DNA from: a virus
Strand: one strand, 5' to 3'
Length of the DNA stretch: 64,000 nucleotides
IMG/VR virus record: IMGVR_UViG_3300014913_000007
Location: 89,390-153,389 of that record
Below are positions 2,971 to 52,510 of this stretch, one piece after another. Each line of letters begins with the position of its first letter. Position 1 is the first letter of the stretch. The position numbers were made by a program, and so were the translations under genes. The notes under the pieces were generated by a model, which had not been told where the DNA came from, made no database searches, and was given only the letters and a program-made list of their open reading frames with translations.

Positions 2971-3057
2971 ATGTTAATATCAACTCTAAAACATATACTA
3001 TTCGATATAAAGCGGTTCCATAACCGCCATAAAAGACGCTTTGCGTCTACAATATAA
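2971..3057 (+). CDS. Possible 28-residue basic leader peptide
   Basis: The first ATG after the tRNA-cluster promoter opens a 28-codon frame ending at TAA 3057. The C-terminal half is basic (KRFHNRHKRRFAS) and is encoded by the two hairpins in the leader. No Shine-Dalgarno site is visible. It may be a leader peptide or chance. Confidence 0.2.
   Translation: MLISTLKHILFDIKRFHNRHKRRFASTI
3012..3048 (+). promoter_or_regulatory. Two tandem hairpins in the tRNA leader
   Basis: GCGGTT-CCAT-AACCGC (3012-3027) and AGACGC-TTT-GCGTCT (3034-3048) are two perfect six-base-pair stems seven bases apart, between promoter and first tRNA. No T run follows, so they are not classical terminators. They could be RNA-processing or stabilising structures. 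Confidence 0.6.
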
Positions 3058-3105
3058 TCAAACAAACAATTCAATTAGGGTAGAAGTAATTAAGTAAATA
3101 AATTT

Positions 3106-3174
3106 GGCTGTATAGGTTAATGGTAGACTAGGAGACTGTCGATCTCTTTGCCGGGTTCGATTCCCGTACAGCCG
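3106..3174 (+). tRNA. tRNA-Asp (anticodon GTC)
   Basis: Acceptor GGCTGTA/TACAGCC, discriminator G. Anticodon loop CTGTCGA, anticodon GTC, closed by GGAGA/TCTCT. T arm CGGG-TTCGATT-CCCG. First gene of the six-gene cluster. Confidence 0.9.
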
Positions 3175-3180
3175 TTCTTT

Positions 3181-3254
3181 TAGGGAGATAGCTCAATGGT
3201 TGGAGCACTCGGCTCGTATCCGAATGGTTACGGGTTCAAGTCCGGCCTCCCTAC
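3181..3254 (+). tRNA. tRNA-Thr (anticodon CGT), imperfect stems
   Basis: Acceptor TAGGGAG/CTCCCTA pairs perfectly and the D stem GCTC/GAGC is intact. Anticodon loop CTCGTAT gives CGT, reading ACG. The base of the anticodon stem is a C-A mismatch, and the T stem (ACGGG/CCGGC) has two mismatches, so this copy may be weakened. Confidence 0.7.
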
Positions 3255-3290
3255 TTTTTAAAGTAAACTATTCTTTACATTATACCAACT

Positions 3291-3345
3291 TAATGTATAG
3301 AATACTAGACATTATCTGCTATACTGTCTAAGATTCTATACATTA
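3291..3345. repeat. Long inverted repeat / 55-base hairpin
   Basis: TAATGTATAGAAT (3291-3303) and TAGACA (3306-3311) are mirrored by TGTCTA (3325-3330) and ATTCTATACATTA (3333-3345). This gives 19 base pairs interrupted only by a 2x2 internal loop, with a 13-base apical loop. It lies between two tRNA genes and has no T run after it. Confidence 0.85.
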
Positions 3346-3354
3346 TAGCATTTT

Positions 3355-3428
3355 GCTGCAGTAGTCTAACTGGATAGGCATCTCGCTTCTAACGAGACAA
3401 TATGAAGGTTCGAGTCCTTCCTGCAGTG
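3355..3428 (+). tRNA. tRNA-Arg (anticodon TCT)
   Basis: Acceptor GCTGCAG/CTGCAGT with one G-T pair. Anticodon stem TCTCG/CGAGA, loop CTTCTAA, anticodon TCT, reading AGA, a codon favoured by AT-rich genes. T arm GAAGG-TTCGAGT-CCTTC. Confidence 0.9.
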
Positions 3429-3437
3429 CTTTATATG

Positions 3438-3510
3438 GTGACCATAACTTAACTGGTTAAAGTGCCTGACTGTGAATCAGGTGATTCGGGTTCAAATCCC
3501 GATGGTCACA
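3438..3510 (+). tRNA. tRNA-His (anticodon GTG)
   Basis: Acceptor GTGACCA/TGGTCAC pairs perfectly; a G precedes the first base, as expected for the extra 5' G of tRNA-His, though the facing base is A. Anticodon stem CCTGA/TCAGG, loop CTGTGAA. T arm CGGG-TTCAAAT-CCCG. Confidence 0.9.
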
Positions 3511-3516
3511 CCCTTT

Positions 3517-3589
3517 GCCCTGGTAGTATAATCAGATAAAACACTCAGCTACGAACTGAGAGATGAAGGTGCAAGTCCTTCCTAGGGTG
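3517..3589 (+). tRNA. tRNA-Arg (anticodon ACG), CCA encoded next
   Basis: Acceptor GCCCTGG/CTAGGGT with two G-T pairs, discriminator G. Anticodon stem CTCAG/CTGAG, loop CTACGAA, anticodon ACG. T loop begins TGC rather than TTC. Bases 3590-3592 are CCA, the only encoded CCA tail in the cluster. Confidence 0.88.
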
Positions 3590-3597
3590 CCAATTAT

Positions 3598-3668
3598 TCC
3601 CTCTTAATGTAACGGTAGCATACCTGGCTTTTAACCAGTTTGTGGGAGTTCAAATCTCTCAGGGGGAA
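3598..3668 (+). tRNA. tRNA-Lys (anticodon TTT)
   Basis: Acceptor TCCCTCT/AGGGGGA with one T-G pair, discriminator A. Anticodon loop CTTTTAA, anticodon TTT; four good stem pairs (CTGG/CCAG). T arm GGGAG-TTCAAAT-CTCTC. Last gene of the cluster. Confidence 0.85.
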
Positions 3669-3706
3669 CTTTTTCAATTTCTAAGTATTAACTAAGTGCT
3701 ATACAC

Positions 3707-3919
3707 TTACTGACTTCCCCACTGTGCAAAACCTGTGGGAGAGTTATAAATTGTAGGTTCTTTGGTAATATCTTCGGATACACTAAAACTATCAGGATAT
3801 CTTCTCAACAAAATTTCTCTCGCCTGTTCAACGCTCTCTGCCAAAGCGAACATTATTCCTGCTTTCCAGTCCCAGAGAACATCTTCCCATACGTATAGTT
3901 TTAGGTTTTTATTCTTCAT
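3707..3919 (-). CDS. Small conserved-looking phage protein, unknown
   Basis: Encodes 70 residues beginning MKNKNLKLYVWEDVLWDWKA, followed by a helix (ALAESVEQAREILLRRYP). The Trp-rich start and the ordered helix suggest a folded domain of a type frequent in phage small-gene clusters, but no function is known to me. Its start overlaps the end of the upstream gene by 11 bases, so it belongs to the minus-strand operon running down to the tRNA region. Confidence 0.55.
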   Translation of the reverse strand: MKNKNLKLYVWEDVLWDWKAGIMFALAESVEQAREILLRRYPDSFSVSEDITKEPTIYNSPTGFAQWGSQ

Positions 3920-4322
3920 CTGACCATTTACCAGTTAGTTTAAAGTGCATTAGTTCACCAGTAAGCTCACTGCTACCACATAGAACTGGTACTCCAAGTT
4001 CTACACAGAGTTCTACTTCTTCACGCATACCTCCAGATACCTTATCACCGTAAAGCCAAAGCTCGTCAAAGCCTCCTCGTCTAAACATTGCCTTGTTTGC
4101 TTCTATTCCCAATCTTCTCTCTTCTGGAATGTTATCATCTAAATAAAGAAGTGGGACTATGTAGGGAGCTAATGGGATAATATTTGGAGAATTTTTATGT
4201 ATTTCCTCACATATATCTTTTACACGATCAATATTACCAGAAATATCTCCAGACACCGGATGAGCTATATAAACCATTAGTTTCTCTTTTTTTGTCTCTT
4301 TAACTTCTGTTTTACCAAACAT
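3909..4322 (-). CDS. DUF7768/DUF4406-type nucleoside deoxyribosyltransferase-like protein
   Basis: From ATG 4322 the product is 137 residues. YIAHPVSGDISGNIDRV near residue 17 is the nucleotide-binding start of the DUF4406/DUF7768 group, related in fold to nucleoside 2-deoxyribosyltransferases; PLAPYI, ERRLGIEAN, DELWLYG and SGGMREEVELC follow in the usual order. GGGAG upstream and the preceding stop at 4324 favour ATG 4322 over 4340. In phages these proteins may act on nucleotides, which fits the dUTPase gene 550 bases upstream. The exact reaction is not known. Confidence 0.7.
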   Translation of the reverse strand: MFGKTEVKETKKEKLMVYIAHPVSGDISGNIDRVKDICEEIHKNSPNIIPLAPYIVPLLYLDDNIPEERRLGIEANKAMFRRGGFDELWLYGDKVSGGMREEVELCVELGVPVLCGSSELTGELMHFKLTGKWSDEE

Positions 4323-48906: not shown

Positions 48907-51366
48907 CTAAAGCCTATCAGCAGCTTCAGTTGCTAATGCAGATCTTACTCCATCTATTAATTGTATGTGTCCTACCAGTTCAGAATCTTTGAACTTCTCA
49001 ATAGTCTGAGCCAGTCCATTAGAGGTTCTAGATACATAGTAGTTATCAATTTGATCTAAGTCTCCCAACAATATAATTTTAGAGTCGTCACTAATTCTAG
49101 TTACAATTGTCTTCACATCTTGTATTGATAAGTTCTGAGCTTCATCTACAATCATTATAGAATTTCTAATGTTTCTACCACGAATATATTGTAGAGGTTC
49201 TATCTCTATAATAGGTTTTTTACCATCTCTAGCATCAGTCATGTAGTCCATTACGTCATTACCATCATCCCCCATTACAAAATCTATAGCGTCTTGAAGT
49301 GGCATAAGGAAAGGTCTAAGTTTATTGCTCAGGTCTCCCGGCAAGAATCCAAGCTTATCTTTACCGCCCATAACTGTTAGAGATCTACTGAGTACTACTT
49401 TACTATACTTAGTTTCAGAGTTTCCTATCACCTGCGCCAATGCTGCTGCTATGGAGATCAGGGTATTGTGTGTAACAACATAGTTGTCAGTTACATAGAG
49501 ATGATCCTTGTCATCAATTAGAATACACTGACATTCTTTCTTTCCTATCTTTTTAATATCTTTTATACCTAACCCCAAGTTTTTAGTATACTGATCTTTC
49601 TTTTTTATTCGTTCCTTCTTTCTTTTTAGTGAAAATAGACTTCTCTTATCTCTATGTCTAATGTTAACTATATAATGCAATCTTCCCTCTACTTTCCTAC
49701 CTGCTTTATCCTTGTAATATGGAAGCTTCTCTGCTATTCTAGCTATACCACCTAACTCCCATATAATGGATTGAACCTGTGTAGCTAACTTCTTACTAGA
49801 AGAACTAAAAGATACTGTACTTAATGTATCTGCATAACCATCTGTATCCATTAAACCTTGTAATAGTTTCAATTTCGAAGATAAACTAGCTTTCAAGTAC
49901 ACCTCTGGTATGCTTTTCTCATAAGAGTACTTCCCATATAGGTCCAAAGATTCCAGCTTACCAACTAGTCTGTTTTTTGTTTTACCTTTTCCAGTATGTT
50001 TAACTAGCAAGTCTACAATAGAGTAATCATATTCTCCATGTTTAGTCTTTCGCATTTCAAAAGACTTTCCTAAAATTCTTTTTAGTTTATTGAGTATTTC
50101 TGCATCTGCAGTTGAGAACGTTGGGGTTCTAGTACGAAAGCACCCATCTCCAATTAAGGCTCCTAGCACATAAGGATCGATTGGTAAGTCTTCTCTCTCC
50201 TTCTCTATTAAGTCTAAACTAAGATTTACTAGTGGAACTCTACCTCTAGACTTATTGTGTGACTTTGATTTAAACTTGATTAGTTGTTTAAGATCAGCAA
50301 CTTCTATCTTCGATCCGTCATCCCTATCAAGCCCTATAACTGACCAAAGGTGGTCTTCACAGCACTCTACACTTCTACCATCTACAAACTCCACTCTGTA
50401 GACTTCCTTCTCGCCTTGAGGAAACACTTGAAGTACTTTGACACTTTTTCCCGTAGGTGTTAAAACCTTAGAACCTTTAACTATATCCCCCATCCTTACA
50501 TAACCTTCAGGTGTAAGTACATTTGAGTCCAGTGGCTGTGCTTTACCAGATCCAGCTCTTCCAGTTAATGTTACCATTTTTACACTTGGATCCATCAATA
50601 ACTGCATAGCATACGCTTGCTCATCGTTTAAGGCTTTTATATTATCTATTTGAAACTCTCTTGGTATTCTAAATAGCTTTCCATTTCTATGGTAGCATCT
50701 AACTTCAGACTTACCTGTAGCTCCACCTTTTACTATACAAAATTCATTCTCTTGTAGTTTATACTTCTTACTAACCTTTGTACCTGTCCACACATGGGCC
50801 TTATGTAAACTGTCTACTAAAAGTTTAGGTGTTTCTTGTATAGGTTCTTCCCTATGTCCAGTATACTTAGTCAACTTAAGTAAGTTTTCTTGATACTTAG
50901 AAGTTTTTATATCATACATAGCTGCTCTCAATCCTAGCAGGATATCATTAGTAACTAAGAGAATTTCTTTACCCTTTTTTAAACTCTGTTTTAATTTCAT
51001 ACATGTTCCAAGTATCCTATCATCTCCTTTTGTTGGATCTAGCGGAGCTTCTAGCTCTGACATGTCTTCAGCTACAAACCTTACAGTTACTCCGGTGTCT
51101 GTATTTAGAATACCTTCGCTTATATTTCCTACCTGTTCAGAGAACCACTCCAGTGCTTTGGAGGCTTTCCGTATGTTAACTGCTTCGCTTCCACCAAGTA
51201 GTTTATCCTTTACTTTATCAAGTTCTTGAAGAACTGTGCTTGTAATAATTACAATATTATCTTTGTAATGACTCAAACAAGAAGGGTCATGTATTAAAGA
51301 AGATGTATCTATTACTACGAGGTTTCCTTTTCCTTTTGGATTATAATTTGATTCCATCAGTGACAT
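48907..51366 (-). CDS. phoH: PIN-PhoH ATPase interrupted by an intein
   Basis: 819 residues before splicing, about 460 after. The N-terminal PIN nuclease domain has VVIDTSSLI (D20), LQELDK (E48) and VTND (D141). The PhoH domain has Walker A GRAGSGK (269-275), cut by a 359-residue intein, completed by T635 onward, then FLPGDLSNKLRPF and Walker B IMIVDEAQ. PIN-PhoH proteins act on RNA, unwinding and cleaving it; phage copies are common but their role is unsettled. The ATPase cannot work until splicing. GGAGTAAT lies before ATG 51366. Confidence 0.95.
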   Translation of the reverse strand: MSLMESNYNPKGKGNLVVIDTSSLIHDPSCLSHYKDNIVIITSTVLQELDKVKDKLLGGSEAVNIRKASKALEWFSEQVGNISEGILNTDTGVTVRFVAEDMSELEAPLDPTKGDDRILGTCMKLKQSLKKGKEILLVTNDILLGLRAAMYDIKTSKYQENLLKLTKYTGHREEPIQETPKLLVDSLHKAHVWTGTKVSKKYKLQENEFCIVKGGATGKSEVRCYHRNGKLFRIPREFQIDNIKALNDEQAYAMQLLMDPSVKMVTLTGRAGSGKAQPLDSNVLTPEGYVRMGDIVKGSKVLTPTGKSVKVLQVFPQGEKEVYRVEFVDGRSVECCEDHLWSVIGLDRDDGSKIEVADLKQLIKFKSKSHNKSRGRVPLVNLSLDLIEKEREDLPIDPYVLGALIGDGCFRTRTPTFSTADAEILNKLKRILGKSFEMRKTKHGEYDYSIVDLLVKHTGKGKTKNRLVGKLESLDLYGKYSYEKSIPEVYLKASLSSKLKLLQGLMDTDGYADTLSTVSFSSSSKKLATQVQSIIWELGGIARIAEKLPYYKDKAGRKVEGRLHYIVNIRHRDKRSLFSLKRKKERIKKKDQYTKNLGLGIKDIKKIGKKECQCILIDDKDHLYVTDNYVVTHNTLISIAAALAQVIGNSETKYSKVVLSRSLTVMGGKDKLGFLPGDLSNKLRPFLMPLQDAIDFVMGDDGNDVMDYMTDARDGKKPIIEIEPLQYIRGRNIRNSIMIVDEAQNLSIQDVKTIVTRISDDSKIILLGDLDQIDNYYVSRTSNGLAQTIEKFKDSELVGHIQLIDGVRSALATEAADRL
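49465..50541 (-). mobile_element. Class 3-type intein with LAGLIDADG endonuclease
   Basis: The intein runs from A276 to N634 of the host protein. Block A starts AQPLDSNVLTPEGYV; block B is EDHLW with W341; the end is VTHN followed by T635. C614 (CILIDDKDHLYV), T632 and W341 form the W-C-T triad of class 3 inteins, which start with a residue other than Cys or Ser. The endonuclease part has LGALIGDG (401-408) and LQGLMDTDG (502-510), so homing may be active. Joining the exteins restores GRAGSGKT. Confidence 0.93.
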
Positions 51367-51914
51367 ATTACTCCATCATCATTTCCACCGCTTCCATCTT
51401 CAGGATCAGGATCATCATCATCGTCCTTAGATGAAAGTAAATCCTCAATATCAGAGATGCTACCCAACTCTCCACTCTCAAGTGCTTGTGTAAGAGTATG
51501 AGCCATTACCATAGTTTGAGTAGGTGAATTCATTAAAATTAAACTTTTCTTGTTATGGGTCCTTAATATTGGTTTATCAAATTCAAGCATATTAAAGTAA
51601 GCTACTACTATTGTATCATCAGTTGGGTAGGAGTATCCTACTACTGATCCTACTAGGTAGGAGTCTGAGTTATCAGTTAAGGAATTTGGATCATCCATAA
51701 GCAATCCATCCTGCATTAACTCTAACTTATCCTCAGTTGTTACTAAGTCTCCGGGAAGAAAGATATATTCACTCAATATCTCCATATTTGGAATATGTAC
51801 TGGGTCTTTCTTTGAAGGATTTACTAGCTTACGTATTAATTTTAACAAATAAATTAAAAAATCAATATGCTTCCTAACCACTAGTTTAAAACATGATTTA
51901 CTTAATGTATACAT
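51357..51914 (-). CDS. Hypothetical protein with acidic tail
   Basis: 185 residues. A basic, hydrophobic N-terminus (KHIDFLIYLLKLIRKL) could be an amphipathic or membrane-touching helix. The middle is strand-rich and the end is very acidic (KDDDDDPDPEDGSGG). Unknown. It is coupled by overlaps to ClpP upstream and PhoH downstream. Confidence 0.5.
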   Translation of the reverse strand: MYTLSKSCFKLVVRKHIDFLIYLLKLIRKLVNPSKKDPVHIPNMEILSEYIFLPGDLVTTEDKLELMQDGLLMDDPNSLTDNSDSYLVGSVVGYSYPTDDTIVVAYFNMLEFDKPILRTHNKKSLILMNSPTQTMVMAHTLTQALESGELGSISDIEDLLSSKDDDDDPDPEDGSGGNDDGVICH

Positions 51915-52510
51915 TATTCTTTTAATTCCTTTTCGCTTTCTATTATCCTATCAATTAAATTAAGATTTTTTGCCTCTTCAGGACACATCCATAAATCTCT
52001 TTGAAGCATTTCTAATACTTTCCCTAAGTCTACTCCAGTTTTCTTAGCTAATATTTTTGCTAAAACTGAATTTAACCTATCAACTTCGTTGAAATTTATC
52101 TCTTGTTCCGTTCTAGTACCTTCTGTAGGGCCTCCACTTACTTCGTGAATCATTATTCTAGTATTTGGTAATGAAAATCTTTTACCATCTGCTCCAGAAC
52201 AGAGCAGAACTGCACCCATACTCGCTGCCTGACCCATGCCTATTGTACGGACATCTGCAGATATGAAGTTCATAGTATTTATAATAGCTAATCCAGCTGT
52301 AACTGAGCCTCCTGGAGAGTTTATATATAGTTCAATATCTTGTTCTGGATTCTGCTGATTGAGTAGTAATAACTGAGCAACTACACTGTTTGCAACATCA
52401 TCAGTTATCTCGGATCCTATGAAAATTATTCTATCTTCTAAGAGTCTTGAATATACATCATAAGCTCTCTCGCCTTCTTTAGTTTTTTCAATTACATTAG
52501 GTATTAACAT
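51914..52510 (-). CDS. clpP: ClpP-like serine protease
   Basis: 198 residues, colinear with bacterial ClpP. Catalytic residues S97 (GMGQAASMGA), H122 (MIHEVSGG) and D172 (LQRDLWM) are present, as is INSPGGSV. The usual HQPxGG is HEVSGG. It lacks the features of a prohead protease fused to scaffold, and no capsid gene is adjacent, so it may form a peptidase ring with host or mixed subunits. First gene of the minus-strand run starting at the divergent promoter. Confidence 0.95.
   Translation of the reverse strand: MLIPNVIEKTKEGERAYDVYSRLLEDRIIFIGSEITDDVANSVVAQLLLLNQQNPEQDIELYINSPGGSVTAGLAIINTMNFISADVRTIGMGQAASMGAVLLCSGADGKRFSLPNTRIMIHEVSGGPTEGTRTEQEINFNEVDRLNSVLAKILAKKTGVDLGKVLEMLQRDLWMCPEEAKNLNLIDRIIESEKELKE

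Follow-up and report, generated by a model that had tools for sequence, protein, structure and literature searches.

The DNA analyzed here raises two questions: which class of intein splits the Walker A motif of a phage PIN-PhoH ATPase, and does its placement amount to a switch on that enzyme? The window, a stretch of 64,000 nucleotides, belongs to a 153,389-base IMG/VR virus record whose phage genes include those for a DnaB-like helicase, an exonuclease, and several other proteins such as glycosyltransferases; megablast found no DNA-level relative of the phage among 50,697 phage records. Reading from sequence, we conclude that the insert is very likely a class 3 intein, equipped with a homing endonuclease of the LAGLIDADG type, in the Walker A coding sequence of a phage PIN-PhoH gene, and we predict that it splices.

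The host gene is a single uninterrupted frame for a precursor of 819 aa, predicted to become 460 aa once spliced (Table 1). It has a PIN domain at the N terminus and a PhoH ATPase with Walker A and Walker B motifs at the C terminus, the PhoH2 arrangement, based on Pfam matches and aligned motifs. The PhoH2 model NF053827 matches the host protein (E = 2.7e-50) at 171.6 bits, under its whole-protein cut-off of 680. In alignment, the joined extein retains the PIN Asp motif VIDTSSL, Walker A, the Walker B motif IMIVDEAQN, and the LGDLDQ sensor, and this retention points to a spliced PIN-PhoH that would be a working enzyme. A ClpP-like protease gene lies closely upstream of PhoH (window positions 51914-52510, minus strand), and in Vibrio phage 1.161.O (L068) a ClpP/crotonase-like gene lies four genes past the intein-bearing PhoH.

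At its junctions the precursor reads ...LTGRAGSGK / AQPLDSNV...ECQCILIDDKDHLYVTDNYVVTHN / TLISIAAA, where slashes mark the intein boundaries, so that the intein is flush between the Walker A Lys275 and Thr635. The empty site is flush as well: aligned with the joined exteins, the intein-free PhoH2 proteins of two Bacillus phages, KLEB27-3 and PBS1, and that of IMG/VR contig L066 are continuous across ..GK-T.., without a gap. Base composition does not distinguish the intein, with a G+C content of 35.7% versus 35.9% in the remainder of the gene. The original prediction had placed an intein at 49465-50541, exactly between GRAGSGK and the following T of a PIN-PhoH ATPase, and the reading frame, Pfam matches, and alignment with intein-free homologues confirmed position, flush split, and host alike. 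Its catalog of residues also stood: A276, W341, C614, and T632 of the precursor, which are intein residues 1, 66, 339, and 357, the THN/T end, and two LAGLIDADG motifs are all where it had put them.

Table 1. Features of the intein-bearing PIN-PhoH gene, in window positions.
Feature	Position	Strand	Basis
PIN-PhoH (PhoH2-type) gene with intein	48907..51366	(-)	One open frame; PIN_4 and PhoH Pfam matches
PIN domain, aa 17-159	50890..51318	(-)	Pfam PIN_4, E 8e-22, model covered full length
N-extein end, Walker A part GRAGSGK, aa 269-275	50542..50562	(-)	Sequence; aligns with intein-free homologues
Predicted class 3 intein, 359 aa (aa 276-634)	49465..50541	(-)	Residues, profiles, alignment, predicted model, empty site
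Intein residue 1, Ala, without N-terminal nucleophile	50539..50541	(-)	Sequence; counts of residue 1 versus residue -1 in family
Trp66 (B:12) of WCT triad, within ECCEDHLW	50344..50346	(-)	Invariant in 22-sequence alignment
First LAGLIDADG motif LGALIGDG, intein aa 126-133	50143..50166	(-)	Sequence, alignment
Second LAGLIDADG motif LLQGLMDTDG, intein aa 226-235	49837..49866	(-)	Pfam, alignment
Cys339 (F:4), predicted first nucleophile	49525..49527	(-)	Invariant in 22-sequence alignment; HMMER register with 6bs8 catalytic Cys
Thr357 (G:5)-His358-Asn359, intein C terminus THN	49465..49473	(-)	Invariant in 22-sequence alignment
Thr+1, predicted second nucleophile and Walker A Thr of PhoH	49462..49464	(-)	Sequence; intein-free alignment
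Remaining PhoH ATPase domain, Walker B IMIVDEAQN and sensor LGDLDQID	48925..49464	(-)	Pfam PhoH 634-814, E 1.7e-36

Class 3 inteins are defined by the lack of an N-terminal nucleophile together with Trp B:12, Cys F:4, and Thr G:5 (PMC3196547, PMC5050341). The insert has Ala1 in place of Ser, Thr, or Cys, and it has W66 (two residues past the block B His64), C339, T357-H358-N359, and Thr+1; the original call to class 3 thus agreed with every sequence feature that can be tested (residue 1, the W, C, and T of the triad, and Thr+1). H64, W66, C339, T357, H358, and N359 are invariant in an alignment of 22 sequences, whose members are 29 to 44% identical to the window intein, and the invariance of six residues across such diverse relatives argues that the WCT/His/Asn signature is not due to chance. 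C337, which adjoins the catalytic Cys, is not conserved in that alignment. HLW, the F:4 Cys, THN, and Ser or Thr at +1 were found in 159 of 159 non-identical class-3-like relatives from viral, phage, and genome loci, a count subject to ascertainment bias in block B, where ECCEDHLW or CCEDHLW was used as a pattern in some scans; blocks F and G never were. Residue 1 is not a nucleophile in all but one of the 159. A viral class-3-like intein, L040, has W, C, and T yet Cys at residue 1 (ENGA/CLPLS), and may be a form intermediate between classes 1 and 3. At intein residues 60-61 (window positions 50359-50364), many relatives also have Cys at the position of the Asp in the DxxH of MsmDnaB1; the same block B position is Asp in Streptomyces RecG-like inteins and Thr in others.

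Profile and structure comparisons gave the same picture of a splicing domain with an endonuclease. The NCBIfam model intein_Nterm matched above its cut-off (25.2 versus 24.5 bits), and Pfam LAGLIDADG_3 matched the intein at 1.8e-12. In an HMMER alignment that spans blocks A-B and F-G, the W, C, and T of the intein line up with those of the class 3 intein MsmDnaB1 (6bs8), W341 and C614 of the precursor falling on the triad; C339 is also in register with the engineered Cys of 6riz. An AlphaFold2 model of the intein, built with 22 relatives, had a mean pLDDT of 88.6 and a pTM of 0.89. Its best PDB matches by Foldseek were the intein-endonucleases PI-SceI and TliVMA, and the splicing domains of the class 3 inteins MchDnaB1 and MsmDnaB1 matched with E values of 3e-6 to 3e-5; Foldseek did not tell the classes apart, as the class 1 gp41-1 intein scored equal to the class 3 ones. 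The two LAGLIDADG motifs contain acidic residues, and the predicted fold resembles PI-SceI and I-DmoI; together these features suggest a DOD endonuclease.

Class 2 inteins too can have Ala1, which counts for a reading of the insert as a class 2 intein, in which the +1 residue attacks directly, or as a derivative of class 1 in which W and C fall at these positions by chance. Some class 1 inteins have an F:4 Cys (PMC3196547), and THN is also the ending of gp41-1, a class 1 intein (PMC7664689). However, W, C, and T occur together here and are invariant in 22 of 22 aligned and 159 of 159 extracted inteins, and class 2 inteins were known only from KlbA, as stated in PMC3196547. Class 2, which is marked by Ala1, direct +1 attack, a KlbA host, and no WCT, does not fit, since WCT is present and the host is PhoH; taken with a class 1 origin, this reading is very improbable. 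A splicing-dead remnant that leaves the phage PhoH nonfunctional has a precedent in the class 3 pseudogene Arsp-FB24 (PMC3196547), but there the His of block B and the Cys at F:4 are missing, and the window intein has both. All catalytic residues, both endonuclease motifs, and the extein motifs are intact in an unbroken frame of 819 codons, and we consider a dead remnant highly unlikely.

Phylogenetic placement is compatible with class 3 membership. When the signature residues were masked in a tree of the splicing blocks, a branch with 95% SH-aLRT separated 65 relatives, the window intein among them, from all class 1 references; the long-branched mycobacterial DnaB class 3 reference grouped with class 1 (95% SH-aLRT). 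A constrained tree that joins this reference to the class 3 rows had a higher likelihood than the free search (AU p 0.93), which makes class 3 membership phylogenetically compatible, not proven.

If the steps worked out for other class 3 inteins (PMC6195587, PMC3196547) apply by analogy, Cys339 would attack the Lys(-1)-Ala1 bond and take the N-extein, Thr+1 would receive the N-extein from Cys339, and Asn359 would cyclize to release the intein. The exteins would then be joined as GRAGSGKT, which would rebuild the ATP-binding loop. The endonuclease may cut intein-free P-loop alleles, and the intein gene would spread in this way. Because the +1 residue doubles as the Thr of Walker A, the precursor before splicing would, by the same analogy, be a poor ATPase.

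The original prediction went further and saw in the placement a possible timing switch. A timing or redox switch would hold PhoH off until a signal, and the unusual Cys pair C60/C61 beside the active-site Trp could contribute. The insertion does split the Walker A Lys from its Thr, and oxidation reversibly inhibits a mycobacterial class 3 DnaB intein via its F:4 Cys (PMC6195587). However, the P-loop K/T junction is a "classic" intein site, including in proteins without known regulation (PMC5050341), and placement, on which the suggestion was based, does not distinguish regulated from immediate splicing. C61 sits at the MsmDnaB1 DxxH Asp position, where Cys is common in the family, but Cys is not universal there (Asp, Thr, Ser, and Gly are seen too), and the redox partner of MsmDnaB1, Cys48, is located elsewhere. 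The frequency of Cys is also inflated by the search patterns, and because ECCEDHLW and CCEDHLW were scan patterns and the family varies at these positions, we dropped Cys60-Cys61 as a conserved redox device; the same-site relatives L006 (ECSGDHLW) and L010 (RACGEHLW) differ there. A regulatory switch would matter more if true, but nothing beyond placement speaks for it here, and we think it unlikely.

Class 3 inteins had been described in the original prediction as rare and mostly known from other phage proteins, and both descriptions need correction. A single bacterial genome scan confirmed at least 463 relatives, and published class 3 inteins include those of DnaB and PhoH in mycobacteria (PMC6195587 Fig. 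6a; PMC7360933). Class 3 inteins are widespread, not rare. Among the best 80 of the at least 463 relatives, the insertion is nearly always GK/A...THN/T in P-loop proteins; many hosts in this set resemble DnaB and RecG by their flanks, and one is ClpB by Pfam. Most of the bacterial relatives inspected interrupt DnaB, RecG, ClpB, SNF2-like, or other P-loop proteins, and viral hosts include PhoH, a Cpn60 chaperonin (L050, Pfam 1.7e-51), and ResIII-type helicases. The nucleotide-binding motif of viral Cpn60 (GroEL-like) chaperonins is interrupted at GDG/TTT by class 3 inteins that begin with Pro1 (L037, L039, L042-L059, L061-L063, and L065); Pfam confirms the Cpn60 identity for L050, and our literature search found no paper pairing "GroEL" with "class 3 intein."

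Within PhoH, class 3 inteins occupy three sites: the P-loop GK/T, the viral LPG/T, and YMRGR/TLNDAFIILDEAQN in Mycobacteriales. P-loop PhoH inteins are found in the window and in L003, L005, L006, L007, L010, and L068, while 17 non-identical inteins occupy LPG/T in viral PhoH and 23 occupy YMRGR/TLNDAF in Mycobacteriales. The window protein reads LPG-D and RGR-N at the other two sites and therefore offers at neither the Thr or Ser that an intein would require as its +1 residue. One viral PIN-PhoH gene, L010, has two class 3 inteins, one in the P-loop (Ala1) and one at LPG/T (Pro1), at 1639-2883 and 2998-4224.

Occupation of one site does not mean common descent. In a full-length intein tree, a single lineage for all seven PhoH P-loop inteins was rejected (AU p 0.00027), as was a single lineage for all PhoH inteins (p 0.004). 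The seven P-loop inteins require six label changes on the tree (five to six across bootstrap trees), a number not below that of many shuffles. Since these inteins are not one lineage, the PhoH P-loop site was probably invaded several times by class 3 inteins. By path length, the nearest rows to the window intein are in other P-loop proteins, namely L012 (a GAGK-type ATPase) and the pair L071/L069 (L069 is ClpB), and the nearest inteins are about 44 to 45% identical to it. L003, a P-loop intein with Ala1, groups with the Pro1 inteins of the LPG site with 100/100 support, suggesting a move of an intein within the PhoH gene family; support is otherwise modest, with 19 of 52 branches starred.

Residue 1 varies with the extein residue just before it. 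Among 159 class 3 inteins from L001-L180, Gly at -1 is followed by Pro in 33 of 33 and Lys or Arg at -1 by Ala in 120 of 124 (all four exceptions have Lys), a pattern that rests on only two to three independent changes, too few for a statistical test of the link between Gly at -1 and Pro1, and that is not yet significant. A broader reading is that class 3 inteins move among the P-loops of unrelated ATPases, that the PhoH Walker A motif was invaded several times from this shared pool, and that at least one move between two PhoH sites came with a change of residue 1, either from Ala after Lys to Pro after Gly or the reverse, this residue being tuned to the one that precedes it in the extein; we give this whole scenario an even chance.

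The same virus record holds a second intein outside the window (L002, G000:C1:21743-22807, minus strand). It has Cys1 and an HHN/S end, is without the W and the F:4 Cys, and splits APPG/SGKT of a ResIII-type helicase; judged by these residues, it is a class 1 intein in another P-loop. One phage thus has two inteins, assigned to different classes, that split two Walker A motifs. No relatives of the second intein or its helicase were found in IMG/VR.

These results add the phage PIN-PhoH P-loop to the host sites of class 3 inteins and correct the idea of their scarcity. Because class 3 inteins have been published in mycobacterial PhoH, the pairing of class and host was already known; the phage PhoH P-loop site seems to be undescribed in the literature searched. 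We found no paper on it, in a search that left out the InBase-era PMC3133030 and PMC4760082, and earlier notice is possible. With three sites in one protein family, a two-intein gene (L010), and same-site inteins that are not closest kin, the window intein and its relatives provide a usable test set for site change and for adaptation of residue 1 to the extein.

Among known systems, PI-SceI and TliVMA are the best whole-structure matches and share with the window model a splicing domain and a two-motif LAGLIDADG endonuclease, but they are class 1 inteins in V-ATPase subunits. The DnaB inteins MsmDnaB1 (6bs8) and MchDnaB1 (6rix) share the class 3 signature, Ala1, and a P-loop ATPase host, and DnaBi1 is inserted in the P-loop (PMC6195587). 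MsmDnaB1 differs from the window intein in its DnaB host, in being a mini-intein without endonuclease, and in having Ser+1 and DxxH in place of CxxH in block B. The viral LPG/T PhoH inteins (L004, L008, L013, L020, L026, L054, and others) are class 3 and 32 to 36% identical to the window intein where aligned but lie at another site, have Pro1 instead of Ala1, and leave the P-loop unbroken. NVP1161O_150 of Vibrio phage 1.161.O (MG592529, L068), annotated as a "hedgehog/hint domain protein," is a PIN-PhoH that a class 3 intein interrupts at the same P-loop K/T junction; the intein is 43% identical to that of the window, but the extein is just 26% identical, and the intein is not the closest kin in the tree. 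The mycobacterial PhoH inteins (M. smegmatis, M. xenopi, and M. fortuitum; PMC6195587, PMC7360933) are of the same class in the same host family. All 23 actinobacterial PhoH inteins examined have Ala1, HLW, the F:4 Cys, THN, and Thr+1 like the window intein, but in the Mycobacteriales genomes examined, perhaps not those of the published species, the PhoH insertion lies just before Walker B and not in the P-loop.
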